From Candidatus Omnitrophota bacterium (GTDB lineage Bacteria; Omnitrophota; JACPQZ01): a stretch of 24,797 bases of DNA. The stretch lies in contig JACPQZ010000028.1 of the NCBI GenBank assembly GCA_016190205.1, positions 1 through 24,797 of the forward strand. The letters run 5' to 3'. The position numbers and the translations under genes are program-made. The stretch's first letter is position 1. Every line of letters starts with the position of its first letter. Shown in pieces: positions 7,572 to 24,469 of the stretch. The notes under the pieces are model-generated. The model worked only from the letters and a program-made list of their open reading frames with translations, was not told where the DNA came from and ran no database searches.

Positions 7572-8415
7572 TCCCACCGCAAGCGCGCCCTCTCAAAGTC
7601 TGCGCACGCAGGTCGTCGGCATTTTAAACGTGACGCCCGATTCCTTCTGGGACGGAGGGCGGTATACGTCATTGGGCACGGCCCTCGCCCGTGCGGAGGA
7701 GATGGTGCGCGAGGGCGCCGACTGGGTGGATGTGGGAGGGTCGTCCAGCCGTCCGGGCGCCGCGGAGGTCCCTTACGAGGAAGAACGCGCGCGTGTCCTT
7801 CCGGTTCTTAAAGGCCTCGTCAAGTCGCTCCCCATTCCCCTTTCGCTGGACACAAGCCGGTATGAAATCATTCAAGAAGCCCTGGATTTGGGCGTCCGGA
7901 TGATTAATGATATCCGCGCCCTGCGTTCGGATGAAAGGCTGCCGGCCTTGGTCGCGCGTTATGAGGCCTTCGTGGTTCTCATGCACATGCAGGGTGAGCC
8001 CCGGACGATGCAGGAACGGCCGCACTACACGGATGTCGTGGGCGACATCAAGGCCTTTTTTGAGGAACGCGTGGCCCTGGTTCAGTCGGCGGGGGTGCGC
8101 TCTGATAAAATCATCCTCGACCCCGGGATCGGTTTTGGCAAGACGGCAGGGCATAACCTTGAAATCTTAAGACGCCTTGCGGCATTTGGCCGCTTGGGGT
8201 ATCCCCTCATGGTGGGACCCTCGCGCAAATCGGTCATCGGCCAGGTGCTCGATGTCCCCGCCGGCGAGCGTCTTCACGGCACCTCCGCCCTCGTCGCCCT
8301 CTCCATCCAGGCGGGGGCGCGTTACGTGCGCGTGCACGATGTGCGGGAGATGGTCCAGGTGGCCCGTATGACCGATGCTGTTGTTGCGGCATCTACACGA
8401 AATAACATCATATGA
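7507..8415 (+). CDS. folP: Dihydropteroate synthase
   Basis: DHPS condenses 6-hydroxymethyl-7,8-dihydropterin diphosphate with p-aminobenzoate in folate synthesis. Signatures in order: [67 protein letters not shown] and RVHDVREM. The residues differ from usual DHPS at several places: Trp where Ser follows TPDSF, and GGSSSRPG in place of the common GGESTRPG in a loop that contacts pABA. The start is ATG 7507 or 7516; AGGA at 7502-7505 is better spaced for 7516. Either way the gene overlaps ftsH by 56-65 bases. Downstream lies repeat element A. Confidence 0.93.
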
Positions 8416-8551
8416 GATACCAGAAACCAGTAACCAGTTACCAGATAGAATTCAGAAACCAGAAACCAGAAAAAGCCAGTTTTAAATCCTGGATTTCCCT
8501 GGTTTCTGGTATCTGGTATCTTCTGGTTTCTGGTAACTGGATTCTGGTAAC
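8416..8551 (+). repeat. 136-bp CCAG-heptamer element, copy A
   Basis: The gap between folP and cdaA is filled by runs of CCAGNNA heptamers on the left and their complements on the right, centred on AAATCC-T-GGATTT at 8484-8496, so the transcript can fold into a long imperfect hairpin. Copy B (10398-10533) is its reverse complement over the whole length with about ten mismatches by hand alignment. Bases 8465-8540 (76 bp) match 10409-10484 exactly. Some units (CCAGTAA) put a TAA stop in one frame, so this element is not coding. Confidence 0.93.
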
Positions 8552-8565
8552 TCAAAAGGGTGCAC

Positions 8566-10388: not shown

Positions 10389-10397
10389 CCGAAAAAA

Positions 10398-10533
10398 GAT
10401 ACCAGATACCAGTTACCAGAAACCAGAAGATACCAGATACCAGAAACCAGGGAAATCCAGGATTTAAAACTGGCTTTTTCTGGTATCTGGTTTCTGGGAT
10501 CTATCTGGTATCTGGTTACTGGTTTCTGGTTAC
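10398..10533 (-). repeat. 136-bp CCAG-heptamer element, copy B (inverted)
   Basis: This is the reverse complement of the element at 8416-8551, with a 76-bp perfect match (10409-10484 against 8465-8540). Its centre is the near-palindrome around 10453-10465. It ends seven bases before the pdxJ ATG and leaves no recognisable Shine-Dalgarno for that gene. Together the two copies bracket cdaA and ybbR (8552-10397). Confidence 0.93.
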
Positions 10534-10540
10534 TCATAGC

Positions 10541-17079: not shown

Positions 17080-18789
17080 ATGGCTAAGACGCGCATTATT
17101 GACTTCCTGCTCGAGGAAAAGATCTTAAGCCCCGAGCAGCTTGAGGCGGCCCAGGGCGAGGAGAAGCTCACGGGGGTTTCCCTCACGCAGATCCTGGTGG
17201 CCAAGGGCTGGGTGTCTGCGGAGCAGCTTGCCCAGGCGGTGGCCAAGAAGCTCAAGCTCTCGTTTCTAAAGTTGAGCGAAATAGAGCTTGATCCCCAGGT
17301 GGTGCGGCTTATTCCGGAGGATGTCTCCCGCCGCTTCAAGGTCGTGGCCGTGAAGATGGAGGGGGACGATCTCCACGTGGCCTTTTCCAATCCCCTCAAC
17401 CTGCCGGCCGTGGATGAGCTTAAGCTTTTGACCGGATGCCCTGTGAGGCAGGTAGTCGCGACCGAGAAGGAGATCGAGCAGGCGATCGCAAAGTACTTCC
17501 GCGTTCAGGAGACGAGCAAGCAGGCCATCATTGATCTGAGGATGCAGAGGGCCAAGGAAAAGAAAGAGGCCGAGGAGGAGCCCCGGACGCCGGGGGACGC
17601 GGTGAGCACGGTGGAGGAAACGCCGGTCGTACGCCTCGTCAACCAGATCGTGCATGGCGCCATCAACGCCTCGGCGAGCGACATCCATCTCGAGCCGCAG
17701 GAGCCGGAGATGGTCGTACGTTACCGCGTGGACGGCATCCTCCACGACGTCATGCACATCCCGCATCACGTCGAGCAGGGGGTCGTCTCGCGCATCAAGA
17801 TCCTGTCCAATATGGACATCACCGAGCGCCGCCGCTCCCAGGACGGGCATATCTCGATCAGCCGCGATGGAAAGGACTATGATATCCGCGTCTCGACACT
17901 TTTAGCGATCGGCGGGGAAAAGATCGTCATGCGCATCCTCGACCGGGGCTCCATGCTCACCCGTCTGGATCAGTTGGGTCTCGAAGAGGATGACCGCAAG
18001 CTCATGGACACACTTATTCACAAACCCTATGGGATGATTTTGGTCACGGGGCCTACGGGAAGCGGAAAGACCACCACCCTAAACGCCGTCTTAAGCCAGC
18101 TGGATTCCATTCGTTCTAATATTATTACCGTTGAAGACCCTGTCGAATACCGCGTGCAGCGGGTCACCCAGGTGCAGGTGGACAGCGGAGTGGACATGAC
18201 CTTTGCCAATGCCTTAAGGACTATCCTGCGGCAGGACCCGGACGTCATTATGGTGGGTGAGATCCGGGACAAGGAAACGGCGGAGATAGCGATCCAGGCG
18301 GCTTTAACAGGCCACCTCGTGTTGAGCACCCTCCATACGAATGACGCCGCGAGCGCTGTGACGCGTCTTATCGATATGGGCGTGGAACCTTTTTTGATTT
18401 CCTCGACCGTGGTCGCGGCGGTGGCACAGCGCCTGGCCCGCGCCGTCTGCCATGAGTGCAAAGAACAGCATGCACCCACTCCAGCGGAGCTTTCCTTTTT
18501 GAAGCAGGGAGGTCTCGGGGCGAGCGAGCTTAAAGATCTCAAGCTCGCGCGCGGCCGGGGTTGTGATTTCTGCTTTAAGACCGGCTTTAAGGGGCGGGCG
18601 GCGATTTATGAAATCCTTAAGGTGAGCGACACGATCCGCGGCATGATCGTGTCGGAGAAGGATGCGGCCAAGATCAAGGAGGCCGCTGTGAAGGAAGGTA
18701 TGAGGACGCTCCAGTGGAACGGCATGAGAAAAATCCTCTCTGGGACCAGCACGCCGGAGGAGATCAAAAGGGTGGTATACGTCGAATGA
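17080..18789 (+). CDS. Type IV pilus/type II secretion assembly ATPase (PilB/GspE)
   Basis: A 569-residue hexameric ATPase that drives pilin polymerisation. The N-terminal MshEN/T2SSE_N domain covers about 5-140, followed by a charged linker at about 150-175. The motor domain has Walker A GPTGSGKT (324-331), Asp box VEDPVEY, Walker B DPDVIMVGEIRD (386-397) and His box TLHTNDA. The tetracysteine zinc site (C457, C460, C495, C498) is typical of GspE and PilB and not of the retraction ATPase PilT. Some GspE/PilB N-domains bind c-di-GMP, which would fit GGDEF-like domains nearby, but the binding motif was not verified. It overlaps pilC by an ATGA. Confidence 0.95.
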   Translation: MAKTRIIDFLLEEKILSPEQLEAAQGEEKLTGVSLTQILVAKGWVSAEQLAQAVAKKLKLSFLKLSEIELDPQVVRLIPEDVSRRFKVVAVKMEGDDLHVAFSNPLNLPAVDELKLLTGCPVRQVVATEKEIEQAIAKYFRVQETSKQAIIDLRMQRAKEKKEAEEEPRTPGDAVSTVEETPVVRLVNQIVHGAINASASDIHLEPQEPEMVVRYRVDGILHDVMHIPHHVEQGVVSRIKILSNMDITERRRSQDGHISISRDGKDYDIRVSTLLAIGGEKIVMRILDRGSMLTRLDQLGLEEDDRKLMDTLIHKPYGMILVTGPTGSGKTTTLNAVLSQLDSIRSNIITVEDPVEYRVQRVTQVQVDSGVDMTFANALRTILRQDPDVIMVGEIRDKETAEIAIQAALTGHLVLSTLHTNDAASAVTRLIDMGVEPFLISSTVVAAVAQRLARAVCHECKEQHAPTPAELSFLKQGGLGASELKDLKLARGRGCDFCFKTGFKGRAAIYEILKVSDTIRGMIVSEKDAAKIKEAAVKEGMRTLQWNGMRKILSGTSTPEEIKRVVYVE

Positions 18790-19838
18790 ACGGGATTCGG
18801 GTAAAACTAGCGGACGTACAGCTTTTTACGGAGAGGCTGGGCACCCTGCTCCACGCGGGGATCCCGCTCATACGAAGCCTTACCACGCTAGGGAACCAAA
18901 CAGAGAACGAGGCGCTCAAGAAGGTCCTGGCCGGCATTCGCAGGGAAGTGGAGGGCGGGGGGTCTTTTTCGGAGGCGCTGGCCCGGTACCCGGGTGTTTT
19001 CAACGATTACTACGTGCACCTCATACGCACGGGTGAGGCGGGGGGAATTATGGAGGGGGTGTTAGGACAGCTCGCTCGCTCCCTTGAGAAGGAAATCCAT
19101 CTGCGGGAGAGCGTGCTGAAGGCCTTCACGTACCCCGTGATCGTTCTTGTCATAGCCTGTTTGGCCGTAACCTTCCTCATGATTTTCATTGTCCCTGTGT
19201 TTGCAAAGACTTATGATATGATGCATGTTACACTTCCACTGCCCACCTTGATCCTGGTCGGGTTGAGCCGGTGGATGATCAGGTTTGGCTGGTCCCTTCC
19301 CATCATTATTTCGGGCCTCATATGGGGCTATAAGAGGTTCGGGGGCGTGCACTGGGGGAAGGTGGCGCTAGACAGGTTTAAGCTTCGGGCGCCCCTTTTC
19401 GGAGACCTTAACCGCAAGGTGGCGGTTTCGCGTTTTGTGCGGACATTGGGATCTCTTATCACTAGTGGGGTAAATATGATAGAATCTCTGCGGGTTACGC
19501 GCGAGGTTTCGGGTAATGTGGTCATATCTGCGATCGTAGCGCAGGTGGAGGCGGCTGTGAGCCAGGGAGAGCGTGTGGTTGGGCCACTCAAGAAGGCTGA
19601 CCTCTTTCCACCCATGGTGACGGAAATGTTTGCCGCCGGCGAGGAGGCAGGGGCATTGGATGAGATGCTTGGCAAGGCCGCCGATTTTCTGGACCGGGAC
19701 GTAGATCAGACTGTCGGAAGATTGGTGTCGCTTTTGGAGCCGCTCCTGACCCTTTTATTGGCCTGTCTCATCGGTTTTATCGCCATGGCGATCTATCTGC
19801 CCATGTTCGATCTCATTCGCGAGGTGGCAGTGAAATGA
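18786..19838 (+). CDS. Pilus/secretion inner-membrane platform protein (PilC/GspF)
   Basis: A 350-residue polytopic protein that couples PilB motion to pilin insertion. It has two T2SSF repeats: the first starts at FTERLGTLLHAGIPL and the second at FVRTLGSLITSGVNM, each ending in membrane helices (about 113-134 and 318-342), with a further helix near 165-180. The start at 18786 overlaps the pilB stop (ATGA); an open frame further upstream lies inside pilB and is not used. The stop overlaps an ATG at 19835 in the next gene. Confidence 0.95.
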   Translation: MNGIRVKLADVQLFTERLGTLLHAGIPLIRSLTTLGNQTENEALKKVLAGIRREVEGGGSFSEALARYPGVFNDYYVHLIRTGEAGGIMEGVLGQLARSLEKEIHLRESVLKAFTYPVIVLVIACLAVTFLMIFIVPVFAKTYDMMHVTLPLPTLILVGLSRWMIRFGWSLPIIISGLIWGYKRFGGVHWGKVALDRFKLRAPLFGDLNRKVAVSRFVRTLGSLITSGVNMIESLRVTREVSGNVVISAIVAQVEAAVSQGERVVGPLKKADLFPPMVTEMFAAGEEAGALDEMLGKAADFLDRDVDQTVGRLVSLLEPLLTLLLACLIGFIAMAIYLPMFDLIREVAVK

Positions 19839-19861
19839 TCAAATCCGGCAAAGGAGAGTCC

Positions 19862-20215
19862 ATGCGGGATAAGCAAGGGTTTACCCTCATCGAGATCCTT
19901 TTCGTGGTCGTTATTATCGGGATATTGGCGGCGGTGGTGATCCCCAGGCTTACAGAGACGCGCTCCACGGCCAATGAAAACGCCTGTGACGCCAACCTCG
20001 CCAACATCAATACCCAGATCGAGCGCTATTATTTCAATACGGGTAGCTGGCCTGCCTCAAACCTCGCCGAGATGATCCCGACCACGACGTACGATTATTT
20101 CCCCAGCGGCCTCCCCACCTGTCCGGTCACGACGAGCGAGTCTTACCGCATGAATACGACGACGCATCGTACGCATGACAACAGCTCCGTCGGAACGCAC
20201 GACCATACCCCCTAA
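19862..20215 (+). CDS. GspG/PilA-like major (pseudo)pilin
   Basis: The mature N-terminus is a classic class III signal: leader MRDKQG, cleavage before F, then FTLIEILFVVVIIGILAAVVIP. The leader is six residues, glutamate +5 is present and the 117-residue product is short. The C-terminal part has a single His-rich tail (THDHTP) that is unusual. ATG 19862 has AAGGAGAG at 19851-19858; ATG 19835 overlaps pilC but gives a nine-residue extension. The first of several pilin-like genes, with a normal leader and no heptamer, it is probably the major subunit. Confidence 0.88.
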   Translation: MRDKQGFTLIEILFVVVIIGILAAVVIPRLTETRSTANENACDANLANINTQIERYYFNTGSWPASNLAEMIPTTTYDYFPSGLPTCPVTTSESYRMNTTTHRTHDNSSVGTHDHTP

Positions 20216-20217
20216 TT

Positions 20218-20799
20218 GTGTTGGATAAGCCTAAGATTACGCGTTGCGCGTTGCGAGGTGCGGGATGCGGGGTGCGGGATGCGGATTGTGAAGGTAGCCA
20301 ATCCAAAATCCACAATTCGCAATTCGCAATTCGGAATCACTCGGCGTACACCCTGGTCGAAGTCGTATTTGTGGTGGTGATCATCGCGATCATCGCCGCC
20401 ATCGTCATCCCGCGCTCGCGGGGGAGCCTCCACACGCGTTATCTCGTCTACACCACCACCCGCCACATGGCTGCCGATTTAAGGCTCGCCCGTCGTCTCG
20501 CCATCGCTCACGGGAGCACCAATTCGAGCGGATATTCCTTCCGGATGATCGGCAGTGTTCCTTACACCGGCTGGAGGGTGCGGGATGAATCGGATGCCAG
20601 CACGGTCGGGATAGATAAAACAGTTCCCTCGGGCGTGAGCGTCTCGGGCACGCAAAGCGCGATTACCTTCAGTACGATAGGGGAAGCCAGCTATTCAGGT
20701 TCTGATTTAACCATCACGAATACGGGGACTCCCACCGTGGTGACCTACACGATCGACGTCATTCAGGCCACCGGACACGTGGCCTTCACAGAGTCTTAA
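20218..20799 (+). CDS. GspH-like pseudopilin with long heptamer-encoded leader
   Basis: 193 residues from a GTG two bases after the previous stop. The first 43 residues come mostly from two heptamer arrays, and then SAYTLVEVVFVVVIIAIIAA gives the prepilin core with E at +5 from the presumed A43/Y44 cleavage. Ala in place of Gly at -1 is tolerated by some prepilin peptidases. The mature part is a GspH/FimT-like globular domain. In-frame GTG codons inside the array could be shorter starts, but even the shortest leaves much repeat. The product should be a minor tip or core pseudopilin, usual in GspH/FimT. Confidence 0.8.
   Translation: MLDKPKITRCALRGAGCGVRDADCEGSQSKIHNSQFAIRNHSAYTLVEVVFVVVIIAIIAAIVIPRSRGSLHTRYLVYTTTRHMAADLRLARRLAIAHGSTNSSGYSFRMIGSVPYTGWRVRDESDASTVGIDKTVPSGVSVSGTQSAITFSTIGEASYSGSDLTITNTGTPTVVTYTIDVIQATGHVAFTES
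20237..20292 (+). repeat. NTGCGNN heptamer array inside a pseudopilin leader
   Basis: Consecutive units TTACGCG, TTGCGCG, TTGCGAG, GTGCGGG, ATGCGGG, GTGCGGG, ATGCGGA and TTGTGAA, all 7 bases long, begin 19 bases after the GTG of the GspH-like gene. They are read in frame as part of its leader peptide, with no stop. Confidence 0.85.
20301..20342 (+). repeat. ATTCGCA heptamer array inside the same leader
   Basis: Units ATCCAAA, ATCCACA, ATTCGCA, ATTCGCA, ATTCGGA and ATCACTC follow 7-bp spacing and run up to the prepilin core. The sequence is unrelated to the array 9 bases before it but has the same period, and it is read in frame as SKIHNSQFAIRNHS. Confidence 0.82.
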
Positions 20800-20807
20800 A
20801 GTTAGCC

Positions 20808-21227
20808 TTGAAAAAGGAAAGCGGACTCACCTTTCTGGAAATCCTGATGACGATCGTGGTGCTTACGGTCGCCCTCATCCCCATCATGCAGATCGCGCCC
20901 TTCGGCGTCAGGAACGCGCGCAACATTGAGCGGCTGACCCACTGCGTTTTTCTGGCGCAGGTTAAGGTGGATGAGATCCGCAACCGGGCTATCGATAGCT
21001 ATACGAACGGGGGCGCGGGTTACGACGAAAGCGCCACGGCCTTCAGCTCGCCTTACGCAACCTATAAATATACCGTGGCGGACAATGAGGCGGCCGACAT
21101 CAAAAACATCACGGTCACCGTTTGGTACGATGAAGATGGAGACGGCACCGTCGACAGCTACTCGGAGGCCTGGCGCGAGGATGAGGCGAGTGTCGTGCTG
21201 GATACGCGGGTTGCAGATCGTGGATAG
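20808..21227 (+). CDS. GspI/PilV-like pseudopilin
   Basis: 139 residues from a TTG start at 20808. Leader MKKESG is followed by LTFLEILMTIVVLTVALIPIM, with E at +5 and a short conventional leader with no repeat. The globular part has DEDGDGTVD near residue 106-114, a D-x-D-x-D-G pattern reminiscent of calcium-binding loops. A TCGTGGA heptamer at 21218-21224 precedes the TAG stop. It sits between GspH- and GspJ-like genes, the normal place for GspI. Confidence 0.82.
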   Translation: MKKESGLTFLEILMTIVVLTVALIPIMQIAPFGVRNARNIERLTHCVFLAQVKVDEIRNRAIDSYTNGGAGYDESATAFSSPYATYKYTVADNEAADIKNITVTVWYDEDGDGTVDSYSEAWREDEASVVLDTRVADRG

Positions 21228-21233
21228 CGTGGG

Positions 21234-21254
21234 TCGGGAAGCGGGAAGCGGGAA
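21234..21254 (+). repeat. GCGGGAA heptamer array (3 units)
   Basis: TCGGGAA, GCGGGAA, GCGGGAA lie in the short gap between the GspI- and GspJ-like genes, another family with the 7-bp period. Confidence 0.75.
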
Positions 21255-21281
21255 TCGCAAAAAAGAAACCGGTGGTTTTAT

Positions 21282-22388
21282 ATGCTAGCGACCAGCGACC
21301 AGCGACCAGCGACCGACGCAGTACGCAGTACGCAGTACGCTGTACGCTGTACGCTGTACGCTGTACGAGGCTTTTCTATCTTGGAGTCCATCCTGGTTGT
21401 AGTTTTGCTGGCGCTTATTGTGACTGCCATTTCCCCTTTCTTCGGCACGGCCTTCAGGGTTTGGCAAAGGGCGGACCGGCAGTCGGAGGTCATGGAGCGG
21501 GCCCGTTCGGGGATGGACCGCCTCTTAAAAACCATCCGGCAGGCGGGCTCGGTCTCAAGCGTCACCGGCTCGGCCGATGTCAATGGCTCCATCCAGCTTT
21601 TAGATGCCTACGGCTCCACCTTTGGCTTCCGGAGAAGCACAGGTTCAGGCGACCTGGAGTATGACCCTCCCGGTTCCCCCACCGGCACCGAGGGGAGCTA
21701 TTCCACCCTGGCCGACCGCGTGGACAGCCTCACCTTTACCTGCTACGACGTGAGTGGGACCACGACCACCACGACTGTCGCGGACATCCGCTCCATTCAT
21801 GTGGTCTTAAGCGCGTCGGACGAGGAGGATGTCGCCGGGAGCGTGCGTCTCACGGCACGGGCCACCCTGCGCAAGGATTTCGTAAGTTACGAGCTCGTCA
21901 TCAACGAAATCAATTATAATAGTACGTATTCCGGCGCGGACGAGCGGGAAAACGAGTGGATCGAAATTTATAATTATGGTTCGACTGCCGTGGACGTGAG
22001 CGGCTGGGAGATTTCGGACGATGCGCAGACGGATTCCGTTCTCGCCGCCGGGGGCACCACCATAATCCCCGCCGGTGGGTTCGCTATTATCACGGCCGAC
22101 CCCACTGATGTCTACACGAATTACAGCGTGGACGCGGGCGCCATCCGTCTGGAAGTAGATGATAACTCGATCGGGAACGGCTTAAACGACAACGGGGAGA
22201 CGATTACGCTCTTGGATGACACGGGGTCCGCGGTGGATGCCGTGACTTACAGCGATACCTGGGGCGGCGACGGGGACGGCGACACGGTGGAGCGCCGCTC
22301 CGCCACCGGCGGCTCAAGCGACGCGACCAATTGGGAGGAGTCGAGTGAGACGGGTGGGATCACCGCCGGCTCCGCCAATTCAGTGTGA
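21282..22388 (+). CDS. GspJ/PilW-like pseudopilin fused to a lamin tail domain (LTD)-like module
   Basis: 368 residues. Leader residues 1-30 are almost entirely repeat-encoded and end in Gly; cleavage G30/F31 exposes FSILESILVVVLLALIV with E35 at +5. The pseudopilin part runs to about 200 (ARSGMDRLLKTIRQAGS is typical GspJ/PilW). From about 203 an LTD-like segment begins: LVINEINYN, then NEWIEIYNYG, VDVSGWEISD, IIPAGGFAIITAD, GETITLLDDTG and AVDAVTYSD, ending TAGSANS. These are the recurring motifs of secreted bacterial LTDs. The start ATG at 21282 is two bases before an AGCGACC array. Translation of the fused frame has no stop. Confidence 0.87.
   Translation: MLATSDQRPATDAVRSTQYAVRCTLYAVRGFSILESILVVVLLALIVTAISPFFGTAFRVWQRADRQSEVMERARSGMDRLLKTIRQAGSVSSVTGSADVNGSIQLLDAYGSTFGFRRSTGSGDLEYDPPGSPTGTEGSYSTLADRVDSLTFTCYDVSGTTTTTTVADIRSIHVVLSASDEEDVAGSVRLTARATLRKDFVSYELVINEINYNSTYSGADERENEWIEIYNYGSTAVDVSGWEISDDAQTDSVLAAGGTTIIPAGGFAIITADPTDVYTNYSVDAGAIRLEVDDNSIGNGLNDNGETITLLDDTGSAVDAVTYSDTWGGDGDGDTVERRSATGGSSDATNWEESSETGGITAGSANSV
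21287..21369 (+). repeat. AGCGACC and GTACGCW heptamer arrays encoding a prepilin leader
   Basis: Four perfect AGCGACC units (21287-21314), a GACGCA junction, then GTACGCA twice, GTACGCT four times and a closing GTACGAG (21321-21369). They supply residues 3-30 of the GspJ-LTD leader. AGCGACC is the complement family of the array at 12673. Confidence 0.93.
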
Positions 22389-22398
22389 TGAAATGATT

Positions 22399-22549
22399 CG
22401 TACAGCGTACAGCGTCGTGCGTACAGCGCAACCTCGGAGCGAGCAAGATTCGTACAGCGTACAGCGCTATGCGTACTGCGTATACGCATTACGCTGTACG
22501 CAGTACGCAGTACACTTTACGCAGTACGCTGTACGCAGTACGCAGTACG
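22399..22549 (+). repeat. Dense inverted GTACGCW/TACAGCG heptamer block
   Basis: The 200-bp gap between the GspJ-LTD and PilX-like genes is nearly all heptamers. The left part (22399-22466) uses TACAGCG units, the right part (22489-22549) their complement (GTACGCA/GTACGCT), around a palindrome GCGTATACGC at 22478-22487. A 20-base direct repeat lies at 22395-22414 and 22447-22466. The transcript could fold into a long hairpin. One frame stays open here but shows no protein-like features. Confidence 0.85.
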
Positions 22550-22563
22550 AACAAGAGAGCCGC

Positions 22564-22593
22564 ATGGCTGTAAACCTGGTGAATAGACCATGA
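22564..22593 (+). other. Nine-codon ORF overlapping the PilX-like start (possible coupling peptide)
   Basis: ATG 22564, preceded by AGAGAG, reads nine codons (MAVNLVNRP) to a TGA at 22591-22593 that overlaps the ATG at 22590. It could couple translation of the next gene, whose own start lacks a good Shine-Dalgarno. It may be chance. Confidence 0.3.
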
Positions 22594-23003
22594 CGCAGTA
22601 CGCAGTACGCAGTACGCAGTACGAGCATGGTATCGCTCTTATTTTGGCGATGTTCACACTTTTATTCGTGGCCATGCTCGTGATCGCCCTCATGAACGTG
22701 GGCGGTATAGATCAGCAGATCGCGACCAACCACATCTATGACGTGCGGGCGACGTACCTTGCGGATGCGGGGATAGAAACGGCCGTGTATAATCTACGGC
22801 AAAACAGCTCCTGGTCCGGGACGGGCGGCAACGTAACGTTTCCCAGCGGCTCCACAAGTTATTACAATGTGACCGTATCGGGGGGCACGATTACCTCGAG
22901 CGGGACGGTGGGTGGATATACGAGGGAGATCGGAGCGGATTATACCTTGAGCGGTGCTTCTGCACCTTATACCGTAAGGTTGGACACATGGGTAGAGCAG
23001 TAA
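22590..23003 (+). CDS. PilX/GspK-like minor pilin with heptamer-encoded leader
   Basis: 137 residues. The leader reads MTQYAVRSTQYEHG, from a heptamer array, then IALILAMFTLLFVAMLVIALM, a typical PilX/GspK transmembrane core after the presumed G14/I15 cleavage; E+5 is absent, as is common in PilX and GspK. Residues 45-60 (DVRATYLADAGIETAVYNLR) match the PilX N-terminal helix, where an A-E/D-A pattern is usual. The mature part is far shorter than GspK, so it fits PilX-like pilin better. It ends inside the PilM-N gene start (16-base overlap). Confidence 0.75.
   Translation: MTQYAVRSTQYEHGIALILAMFTLLFVAMLVIALMNVGGIDQQIATNHIYDVRATYLADAGIETAVYNLRQNSSWSGTGGNVTFPSGSTSYYNVTVSGGTITSSGTVGGYTREIGADYTLSGASAPYTVRLDTWVEQ
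22593..22625 (+). repeat. GTACGCA heptamer array inside a pilin leader
   Basis: ACGCA, then GTACGCA three times and GTACGAG, starting three bases after the ATG. It has the same GACGCA beginning and GTACGAG end as the array at 21315-21369, so the two are likely copies of one another or were made by the same process. Confidence 0.9.
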
Positions 23004-24469
23004 ATCTGTTGCGGCAGTTGTGGGCCTTCATGCGGGCGGAGGGCCCGATTGCGGGCATTGTCATGGGCCCGGAGCACGTGTTTAAATGCACGGTTAGGAG
23101 GGAGGAGGGAGGAAGGATGATATGGGGCGAGAGGTCGGAGGCGCCTCTACCCAAGGACAGCGTGGTCAACGGTCACATCATGGATCCCGCAGCGGTGGCC
23201 CAGGTGCTTGGGCAGATGTTCCCAGGGCGCGGATACGCAGTGCGCCGGGTGGCTATTGCCCTAAATGTCCCCGGTCTTTTAAGCCGCACTTCCGACCTTG
23301 CTCCCATGGTGGGGGAGAAGTTAAAGAAGGCGCTTAAGGCCGAGGCGGACAAATATCTGCATGGAGAGGCGGCCGTGCTGGATTTATTCCATCTTGACCG
23401 GGCTCGTGTTTCCTGGGTGGCGGTTCCCCACGCCGCGGCGCAGGCGTACGCCGCCATGGCGCGCGCGGCGGGTCTCGACTTGGTTAGTCTGGATGCCTCT
23501 GCCCTAGCCGCCCTAAGGGCTTTGTCCGAAGATGTGCTCCCAGCTCGATCCAAGGATACGGTGATGGTTATTTTGGCTTCGGGTTCGCAGGCAGAGATCG
23601 TCTTGTTCAAGGAGGGCCTGCCGGTATTGAGGCGCAGCCTCTCGTCCACACAGGGTTCTGATATCATTCAAGAAGCCACTCTCACCCGGGCGTACTGGGA
23701 AGAGGAGACGCGGGGGGAGGCGATCGCAAAGGCGGTTATCCTGGATGACCACAATGAATCGGCGTCATGGGCGGAGGGGCTTCAAGAAGCGCTGGGAGGA
23801 ATTCCCGTCGAGCGGGCGGGCGTCTTAGGGACGCGGTTTGATTCCTACAATCTCTCCTGGGCTGTGGCGGCGGGGCTTGCGCTGCGTGGAGCGGTGACGC
23901 GGGCGTTTGACTTGAATCTCATTCCGCCCGAGAAGGCGGCTGTGGACAGGCGGCTTCGCTATGCGCTTGCGTCGGGCGTATATCTCGTGGCGGTGTGTGT
24001 GGCGTTTTTAGGTGTGGGACTTACGCTGTCCGCGTCGGCACGTTCCTGGCAGGTCAGGACCTTGGCCCTAGCGGGCCAGATGGGGGGTTCTCAAGATGTA
24101 GTCCAGGAGTGGGGCAGGTTAAACGCGGAGCGGGGGCAGCTTAAGAGGGCATTGGAGGAAATGGGGCGGCTGGCTGGAGAAGGTTCGAGCCCCGCCTGGT
24201 CAGAAATCATCCGTGACCTTGCCAAAAAGATTCCGGCCCAGGTTTGGCTGGAGCGTGTAGAACCGGTGGCCGGCGAGGAGGCTCTTTGTCTGATCGGAAA
24301 GGCCTATGCCCAGGAGGACGTATACCAGTACGTGCGGCTCTTGGGTGTTTCGCCTTTTTTTGTGGAGCCTACTTTAGATCGCACGGAAGGCACATCCCGC
24401 GAAGGCATGCAGGCGGTCCGGTTTATCATCACCTGCCCGGTGCGGGCTCTTTTGGAGAGGGCCCGATGA
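22988..24469 (+). CDS. PilM-PilN fusion (GspL-like pilus assembly protein)
   Basis: 493 residues combining two T4P inner-membrane partners. The N-terminal ~300 residues are a PilM/FtsA-like actin-fold domain. At 307-315 FDLNLIPPE is the PilN motif that normally docks in PilM, followed by a membrane helix at about 326-348 and a coiled-coil and periplasmic PilN domain with SEIIRDLAKKIPAQVWLERVEP. Fusion makes a GspL-like topology (cytoplasmic actin-like domain, one helix, periplasmic domain). It overlaps the pilin gene by 16 bases and the next gene by an ATGA. Confidence 0.85.
   Translation: MGRAVNLLRQLWAFMRAEGPIAGIVMGPEHVFKCTVRREEGGRMIWGERSEAPLPKDSVVNGHIMDPAAVAQVLGQMFPGRGYAVRRVAIALNVPGLLSRTSDLAPMVGEKLKKALKAEADKYLHGEAAVLDLFHLDRARVSWVAVPHAAAQAYAAMARAAGLDLVSLDASALAALRALSEDVLPARSKDTVMVILASGSQAEIVLFKEGLPVLRRSLSSTQGSDIIQEATLTRAYWEEETRGEAIAKAVILDDHNESASWAEGLQEALGGIPVERAGVLGTRFDSYNLSWAVAAGLALRGAVTRAFDLNLIPPEKAAVDRRLRYALASGVYLVAVCVAFLGVGLTLSASARSWQVRTLALAGQMGGSQDVVQEWGRLNAERGQLKRALEEMGRLAGEGSSPAWSEIIRDLAKKIPAQVWLERVEPVAGEEALCLIGKAYAQEDVYQYVRLLGVSPFFVEPTLDRTEGTSREGMQAVRFIITCPVRALLERAR

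Follow-up and report, generated by a model that had tools for sequence, protein, structure and literature searches.

Heptamer-array leaders of prepilins in an Omnitrophota genome and their probable origin from small intervening-sequence-like elements

Tandem repeats of seven-base units have been noted in bacteria for decades, to our knowledge with no explanation beyond polymerase slippage, and we know of no function for the IVP proteins since the first rRNA intervening sequences (IVSs). IVP denotes the four-helix-bundle "23S intervening sequence protein" (S23) of the family PF05635. This work concerns a window of 24,797 nucleotides from a Candidatus Omnitrophota bacterium (contig JACPQZ010000028.1, positions 1 to 24,797; C17 in our numbering of a 76-contig, 1.65-Mb draft genome), in which heptamer arrays form the leaders of three prepilins of a type IV pilus/type II secretion operon, and it relates these leaders to small elements in which two inverted heptamer arrays flank an IVP gene.

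The closest described systems are the IVSs of 23S rRNA which carry an S23/IVP open reading frame (ORF), such as that of Coxiella burnetii, with complementary termini, a long stem, and a PF05635 ORF (PMC4990558). The Coxiella IVS also contains tandem heptamers (GACAGAT) just before the S23 ORF, in two or three units depending on the strain (PMC4990558), and IVP ORFs are scattered in 16S and 23S insertions of bacteria of the candidate phyla radiation (PMC11270868). The elements described here resemble the rRNA IVSs in termini, stem, and ORF but differ from them in that both arms are heptamer arrays, with a unit particular to each copy, and in that derivatives with a single arm or without IVP are abundant and arms appear to become coding. 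Moreover, the copies of this genome lie between protein genes in operons; since location in rRNA, a defining feature of an IVS, is not found, we call them IVS-like.

Other known repeats share some of these traits. The short tandemly repeated repetitive (STRR) sequences and heptameric long simple sequence repeats of Calothrix, Nostoc, and Xanthomonas (PMC4692102) are likewise intergenic, with several units per genome and variable copy number, but they were described as simple repeats with no linked gene, whereas the position, orientation, and matched unit of the arrays here link them to IVP. The TAACTGA direct repeats of Beggiatoaceae (PMC4679880) are also heptamers lying just 5' of start codons, some of them within ORFs; unlike those here, they have one unit, are almost all direct, and have no reported link to IVP. 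Miniature inverted-repeat transposable elements and repetitive extragenic palindromes (REP/REPIN) are similar as short, dispersed, intergenic inverted repeats which are apparently nonautonomous copies of a larger element, while the present elements have no transposase, have tandem-heptamer arms which vary by copy, and show no target duplication. As for the protein, PF05635 is structurally related to Avd of diversity-generating retroelements (PMC10053308); in the short flanks that were read, we noticed no reverse transcriptase, template, or variable repeat, although no search was aimed at them. According to a title cited in PMC3936711, the solved IVP-family member Xcc0516 assembles from five four-helix bundles. 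Outside Coxiella, we found no paper linking IVP to heptamer arrays, most subscription journals being beyond the reach of the search; heptamer repeats and IVP/IVS are each known separately, and their joining was not found in the literature searched.

Heptamer arrays in prepilin leaders

The GspH-, GspJ-, and PilX-like prepilins of the window, all on the + strand, start with heptamer-array leaders which are real and far beyond chance. The GspH-like prepilin (20218-20799; PF07963 and PF12019) has the 43-residue leader MLDKPKITRCALRGAGCGVRDADCEGSQSKIHNSQFAIRNHSA, counted from GTG 20218, before the mature start ..RNHSA/YTLVE (slashes mark cleavage sites); an alternative GTG at 20272 would give a leader of 25 residues. 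Its leader is encoded by a TGCGGGA-type array at 20240-20284 and a CAATTCG-type array at 20300-20337 (20313-20337 according to the program TRF, which also delimited the other leader and arm arrays of the window), the second being partly complementary to the first (fold z -2.0). In the GspJ-like prepilin (21282-22388), which is fused at its C-terminal end to a lamin-tail domain (PF00932), the 30-residue leader MLATSDQRPATDAVRSTQYAVRCTLYAVRG starts at ATG 21282 and is encoded by (AGCGACC)4 at 21287-21314 and (ACGCAGT/ACGCTGT)7.4 at 21316-21367, the latter abutting the cleavage site in ..CTLYAVRG/FSILES; a further array (CGGGAAG) lies upstream at 21235-21254. The PilX-like prepilin (22590-23003) has a 14-residue leader from ATG 22590, MTQYAVRSTQYEHG/IALIL, encoded by (ACGCAGT)4.4 at 22593-22623. 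The original prediction, which described the three leaders as almost entirely heptameric, holds for their lengths when counted from the upstream starts; the arrays make up about 90% of the GspJ leader and three quarters of the PilX leader, but only roughly two thirds of the GspH leader, for which "almost entirely" is too strong. As it had also stated, the GspG-like (19835-20215, + strand; PF07963) and GspI-like (20808-21227, + strand; identified as an ORF) prepilins, which serve as comparators, keep the ordinary six-residue leaders MRDKQG and LKKESG.

The sequences show the features of class III prepilin leaders, i.e., G or A at -1, a hydrophobic N terminus, and E at +5. PF07963 scores above the cut-off for GspG and GspH and below it for GspJ (15.2 bits), whose ..RG/FSILES still fits a class III leader, while the PilX-like protein fits a prepilin weakly, by PF14341 only and below the cut-off (20.1 of 25.5 bits). 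In all three leaders the last array ends at most a few codons from the point where the mature pilin begins, and the interval contains no ATG, GTG, or TTG. This absence weighs against the idea that the arrays are 5' untranslated and that short leaders result from coupling or from a start at CTG, ACG, or ATT near the mature N terminus. Such an idea could draw on the in-frame CTG of GspJ, which would yield the six-residue leader LYAVRG, and on the several array leaders which have no good upstream ribosome site. However, the GspK gene of contig C63 has a good ribosome site (5/6), an ATG, MSFKDKG, the element in frame, and then ERG/TILII, with 64 open codons, as if the element had landed within an ordinary leader. 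In the prepilin at C37:11216, 97 codons are open from an ATG with a ribosome-site match of 5/6, while the other two frames contain 3 and 4 stops. These ribosome sites and open frames therefore favor, rather than prove, translation through the arrays of the two genes, and two prepilins of a relative (G122, discussed below) both have an in-frame ATG 18 codons upstream. We thus consider untranslated arrays unlikely and suppose that the array leaders are translated and cleaved.

Prepilin peptidase cuts the leader off before assembly, and the arrays are concentrated where they would be removed in this way, as originally predicted. We analyzed a sample of 614,800 bases of the same genome (about 37%), in which a simple codon-based gene finder, hence our own calls, gave 476 genes and 82% coding DNA. 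PF07963 identified 18 prepilins in the genome; adding PilX- and GspK-like proteins and leaving aside the contigs outside the sample again gave 18. An array is needed as leader in 10 of these 18 prepilins, against about 6 of 448 other genes (Fisher 2.6e-12), the latter count and its categories being judged by eye. The six other genes resemble exported proteins with Sec or lipoprotein signals.

That the arrays are a pilin-specific feature, on the other hand, is not supported. The sample contains 219 period-7 arrays, against 0 to 2 for every other period from 2 to 13 and none in shuffled DNA; they comprise >60 units and 1.2% of the sampled DNA. The great majority (183/219, 84%) are intergenic, and the 36 which touch genes do so mostly at the edges, where they encode signal peptides, the leaders of prepilins, or C-terminal tails in AtpA and other housekeeping proteins; a few others are internal. 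We therefore rejected prepilin leaders as an invention specific to pilins. The array-encoded tails (e.g., ..NAVRSTLYAVRGKLPGDL) were seen at L137:16002-17552 (AtpA), L168:10640-11587 (IspG-like), L156:3864-4985, and L165:16030-17787, and signal peptides apparently built from arrays encoding hydrophobic residues (GIWLLVSGYFVLQ, VPRPTSYVLLLSSLLPLF) at L133:180-731, L144:16588-16860, and L135:8887-11241. Arrays deep inside conserved enzymes, at L134:11804-11892 (HisH-like), L159:6697-6725 (KdsB-like), and L132:17557-17594, are possibly loops or frame errors.

This distribution also bears on the reading of the arrays as a contingency locus for phase variation, in which slippage by one or two heptamers would switch a pilin off or on and three units would amount to seven leader residues. 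A 7-bp unit moves the frame by one, so that a frame change is mechanically possible; four leaders whose initial ATG immediately precedes the array hold 31 or 52 nt of it, three units apart, as expected under frame retention, and whole-unit differences occur between related Nostoc plasmids and between Coxiella strains (PMC4990558). Nevertheless, the same arrays also occur between genes and encode signal peptides and C-terminal tails, so that selection peculiar to pilins need not be invoked, and many arrays are broken by substitutions. A dedicated switch is in our view quite unlikely.

IVP genes and their inverted heptamer arms

The genome contains five PF05635 genes, four of which have inverted heptamer arrays on both flanks. 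Each of the four has its own unit, matched between the arms: CGTACAG in C13, CGTGCTT in C21, a GTGATGAG-type unit in C31, and AGATACC in C24. The gene at C13:857-1168 is a PF05635 member well above the cut-off (E 6.5e-39), with 2GSC as the nearest PDB chain, and it lies, intact, directly before an array-leader prepilin. In the window, arms of the IVP type and an IVP remnant, all on the + strand, precede PilX. A 5' arm of (CGTACAG)n blocks (22399-22482) is followed by an inverted 3' arm of (ACGCAGT/ACGCTGT)9.6 (22483-22549) and by a 46-nt remnant of an IVP gene 3' end (22548-22593, + strand; EQESRMAVNLVNRP and a stop), 76% identical over 46 nt to the IVP gene of C13 by blastn. The stop codon of this remnant overlaps the PilX start as ATGA, and the second 3' arm, at 22593-22623, is the array which encodes the PilX leader. 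Seven more IVP 3'-end pieces like this one were found elsewhere in the sample. On L137 (1-250 and 3120-3430), we observed 81-bp tandem copies of an IVP 3' end together with its 3' arm, while the 5' arm there is made of composite units of about 52 bp (TTCGTACAGCGTACAGCGTCGTGCGTACAGCG..GGGGCGAGCGGGA).

Beyond this genome, PF05635 was found in 81 of 145 Omnitrophota genomes and in 0 of 14 control genomes, and the phages searched gave no match. We examined the flanks of IVP genes in three sets, namely, Omnitrophota; Deltaproteobacteria, Patescibacteria, Planctomycetota, and Pontiellaceae; and plasmids, mostly of Nostoc, Calothrix, and other cyanobacteria. In all three, autocorrelation is raised chiefly at lags 7, 14, and 21. 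Inverted complementary arms, defined as complementarity beyond the best of 60 shuffles, flank 60 of 73 IVP genes, against 11 of 338 control genes (Fisher 1.7e-47), so that the complementary termini of the IVSs recur here. Arms match at a score of 15 or more in 66% of comparisons within an element and in 0.5% between elements. Since units differ per copy, the candidate CGCAGTA, considered as a phylum-wide repeat, was found in only 9 of 285 genomes and rejected. In stretches not chosen for IVP, array density was 0.75 per 100 kb in IVP-free genomes and 5.2 per 100 kb in IVP-bearing ones, a small sample which points in the expected direction.

In the sampled part of the present genome, 117 of the 219 arrays share their unit with one of the four armed IVP copies, and of 144 pairs of adjacent arrays 38 are inverted, against the 6.3% that random pairing would give. 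This is difficult to reconcile with ordinary local slippage, according to which heptamer microsatellites arise anywhere, persist under weak selection, and are only secondarily linked to IVP. An origin of heptamers by polymerase slippage was put forward in a 2007 proposal, as cited in PMC4692102; heptamers are over-represented in many bacteria according to the literature, arrays lengthen and shorten by whole units, and 102 of the arrays sampled here match no IVP copy. Slippage alone, however, gives no inverted matched pairs, for which it is already insufficient, and it leaves unexplained why such pairs cluster at one gene family in several phyla, why PilX is preceded by an IVP remnant, and why sites occur in filled and empty form, as described below. 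We regard it as improbable as the source of the arrays.

Transcription direction and folding raise the further question of whether the arrays act as RNA hairpins between cistrons, retained by pilin operons for regulation through cleavage by RNase III, the ends of mRNAs, or occlusion of the following start codon. The neighbors of IVP genes are co-directional at 50 of 52 resolved loci upstream and 40 of 44 downstream, and rRNA IVS hairpins are cut by RNase III (PMC4990558). Strong folds are predicted in the window for the region 22396-22630 (z -7.2), which encloses the PilX start and in which the arm encoding the PilX leader pairs with 22397-22428, and for two inverted heptamer hairpins without IVP, one folded over 8415-8556 (z -10.1; feature at 8415-8552) between FolP-like and DisA/CdaA-like genes and one folded over 10397-10535 (z -12.5; feature at 10397-10531) upstream of a PdxJ-like gene; the window has no Rfam match at the gathering threshold. 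By contrast, shuffled sequences fold as well as the arrays of GspH and GspJ, or nearly as well, and most relatives' pilin operons have no arrays, which makes a retained regulatory role rather doubtful.

The relatives are informative also about the leaders themselves. In G122, which belongs to another Omnitrophota family, the pilin operon holds two IVP genes, each directly 5' of an array-leader prepilin, and the 3' arm (unit ACGATAT) constitutes the leaders MQYALKKTIYDIRHTIYDRKG/FTLIE and MRHTIKKTIYDMRHTIYDRKG/FTLIE. Among 29 other prepilins inspected in array-bearing relatives, none has an array within 150 bp upstream. The expectation that relatives carry such leaders is thus borne out by the two G122 prepilins, both directly after an IVP gene, and fails for the others; since array leaders in the relatives inspected occur only next to IVP genes, the leader tracks the element and not the pilins as such.

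Filled and empty sites

Cyanobacterial plasmids provide sites with and without the element. Plasmid 2 of Aulosira laxa carries it, with ends formed by 30-bp nearly perfect inverted repeats, i.e., terminal inverted repeats, while the site is empty in Calothrix, Tolypothrix, and Aulosira plasmid 1. In Picosynechococcus PCC 7003 the element separates cas10 from cmr3, two genes annotated 12 nt apart in PCC 7002; this empty site rests on that annotation and on flanks which are 92% identical, the alignment being messy. In Nostoc, two plasmids are filled and three are empty, and in ATCC 53789 the site holds inverted heptamer arms but no IVP gene; the 3' arm of one filled plasmid is one 7-bp unit longer than that of the other. 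Although they do not indicate the mode of movement, these pairs are good evidence that elements have been gained or lost and that arms change by whole units.

The plasmid copies of IVP sit between cas, tra, or other genes. In type I-D and III-B cas operons of cyanobacterial plasmids (cas6-IVP-cas4; cas10-IVP-cmr3), heptamer arrays or inverted arms flank the IVP gene, clearly inverted in L307, as long arrays on both sides which are not inverted in L306, and as short arms in L310. IVP genes have been listed as cas-associated from their occurrence in cas loci (PMC3936711). In light of these flanks, the reported link may simply be the insertion of an element.

Origin of the leader arrays

Because of the association of arms with IVP, the matched units, the empty sites, the IVP remnant before PilX, and the adjacency of leaders to IVP genes, the leader arrays are most likely element arms: we consider them probably to be the arms, or arm remnants, of small IVS-like elements. 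Such an element would consist of two arrays of one heptamer, inverted around the gene for the four-helix-bundle protein, with its own heptamer in each copy matched between both arms, and it would insert where two genes of an operon meet, oriented with transcription. The element presumably moves or once moved. Its arms may fold as a hairpin in RNA or single-stranded DNA, to which IVP would bind; the matched units suggest that one arm is perhaps copied from the other. In most copies the IVP gene would have been lost, so that inverted or single arrays are what remains. In a copy situated 5' of a prepilin gene, the 3' arm, which is stop-free on that strand, could be read as an extended leader, with a start codon at the IVP stop or within the old leader. 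Prepilin peptidase would remove this arm-derived leader and leave the mature pilin unchanged, and because the leader is cleaved, arrays would be tolerated there and not purged by selection. Slippage could then alter leader length or frame, which makes pilin switching possible.

Several observations sit uneasily with such an origin. A complete IVP gene is absent from the window, and the arrays of GspH and GspJ come with neither an IVP remnant nor a significant fold (z -2.0 and -1.0). The 102 unmatched arrays fit no IVP copy in this incomplete assembly, the divergent copy C16, excluded from the 73-gene test, has no arms, and about 13 of the 73 IVP genes are armless by the shuffle test, while some Patescibacteria arms (L282, L297; AAAGTCCGT) look 9-periodic instead of 7-periodic. 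No transposase or other mobility enzyme accompanies IVP; the IVP ORF is the only one between the arms, and its consensus shows no catalytic signature that we recognized. At the Aulosira site 12 to 17 bp of the target are gone, and no target-site duplication was seen at the Aulosira, Picosynechococcus, and Nostoc sites; insertion is therefore imprecise or old.

According to ORFs and family profiles, the operon of the window also includes GspE (start at 17080) and GspF (start at 18714 or 18786); judged by the latter protein, the nearest relatives are Candidatus Omnitrophota genomes. Downstream of PilX, a single ORF (22988-24469) encodes a PilM-PilN fusion, with PilM at its N-terminal end (below the cut-off) and PilN at its C-terminal end.

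On a broader proposal we hold the balance even: IVP genes with inverted heptamer arms may be widespread, unrecognized small mobile elements, of which the rRNA IVSs would be a special case and which would be a main source of the heptamers over-represented in many bacterial genomes, with IVP copying or maintaining the heptamer hairpin. Such an action of IVP would explain why units differ between copies yet match between arms. If this is true, a single heptamer-armed element would cover heptamer repeats, the role of IVP, and the presence of IVP in cas loci. The probable derivation of the leader arrays from such elements in itself hints at where the puzzling heptamers of many bacteria came from, and it would also mean that inserted DNA can turn coding where its product is removed, as in the prepilin leader.

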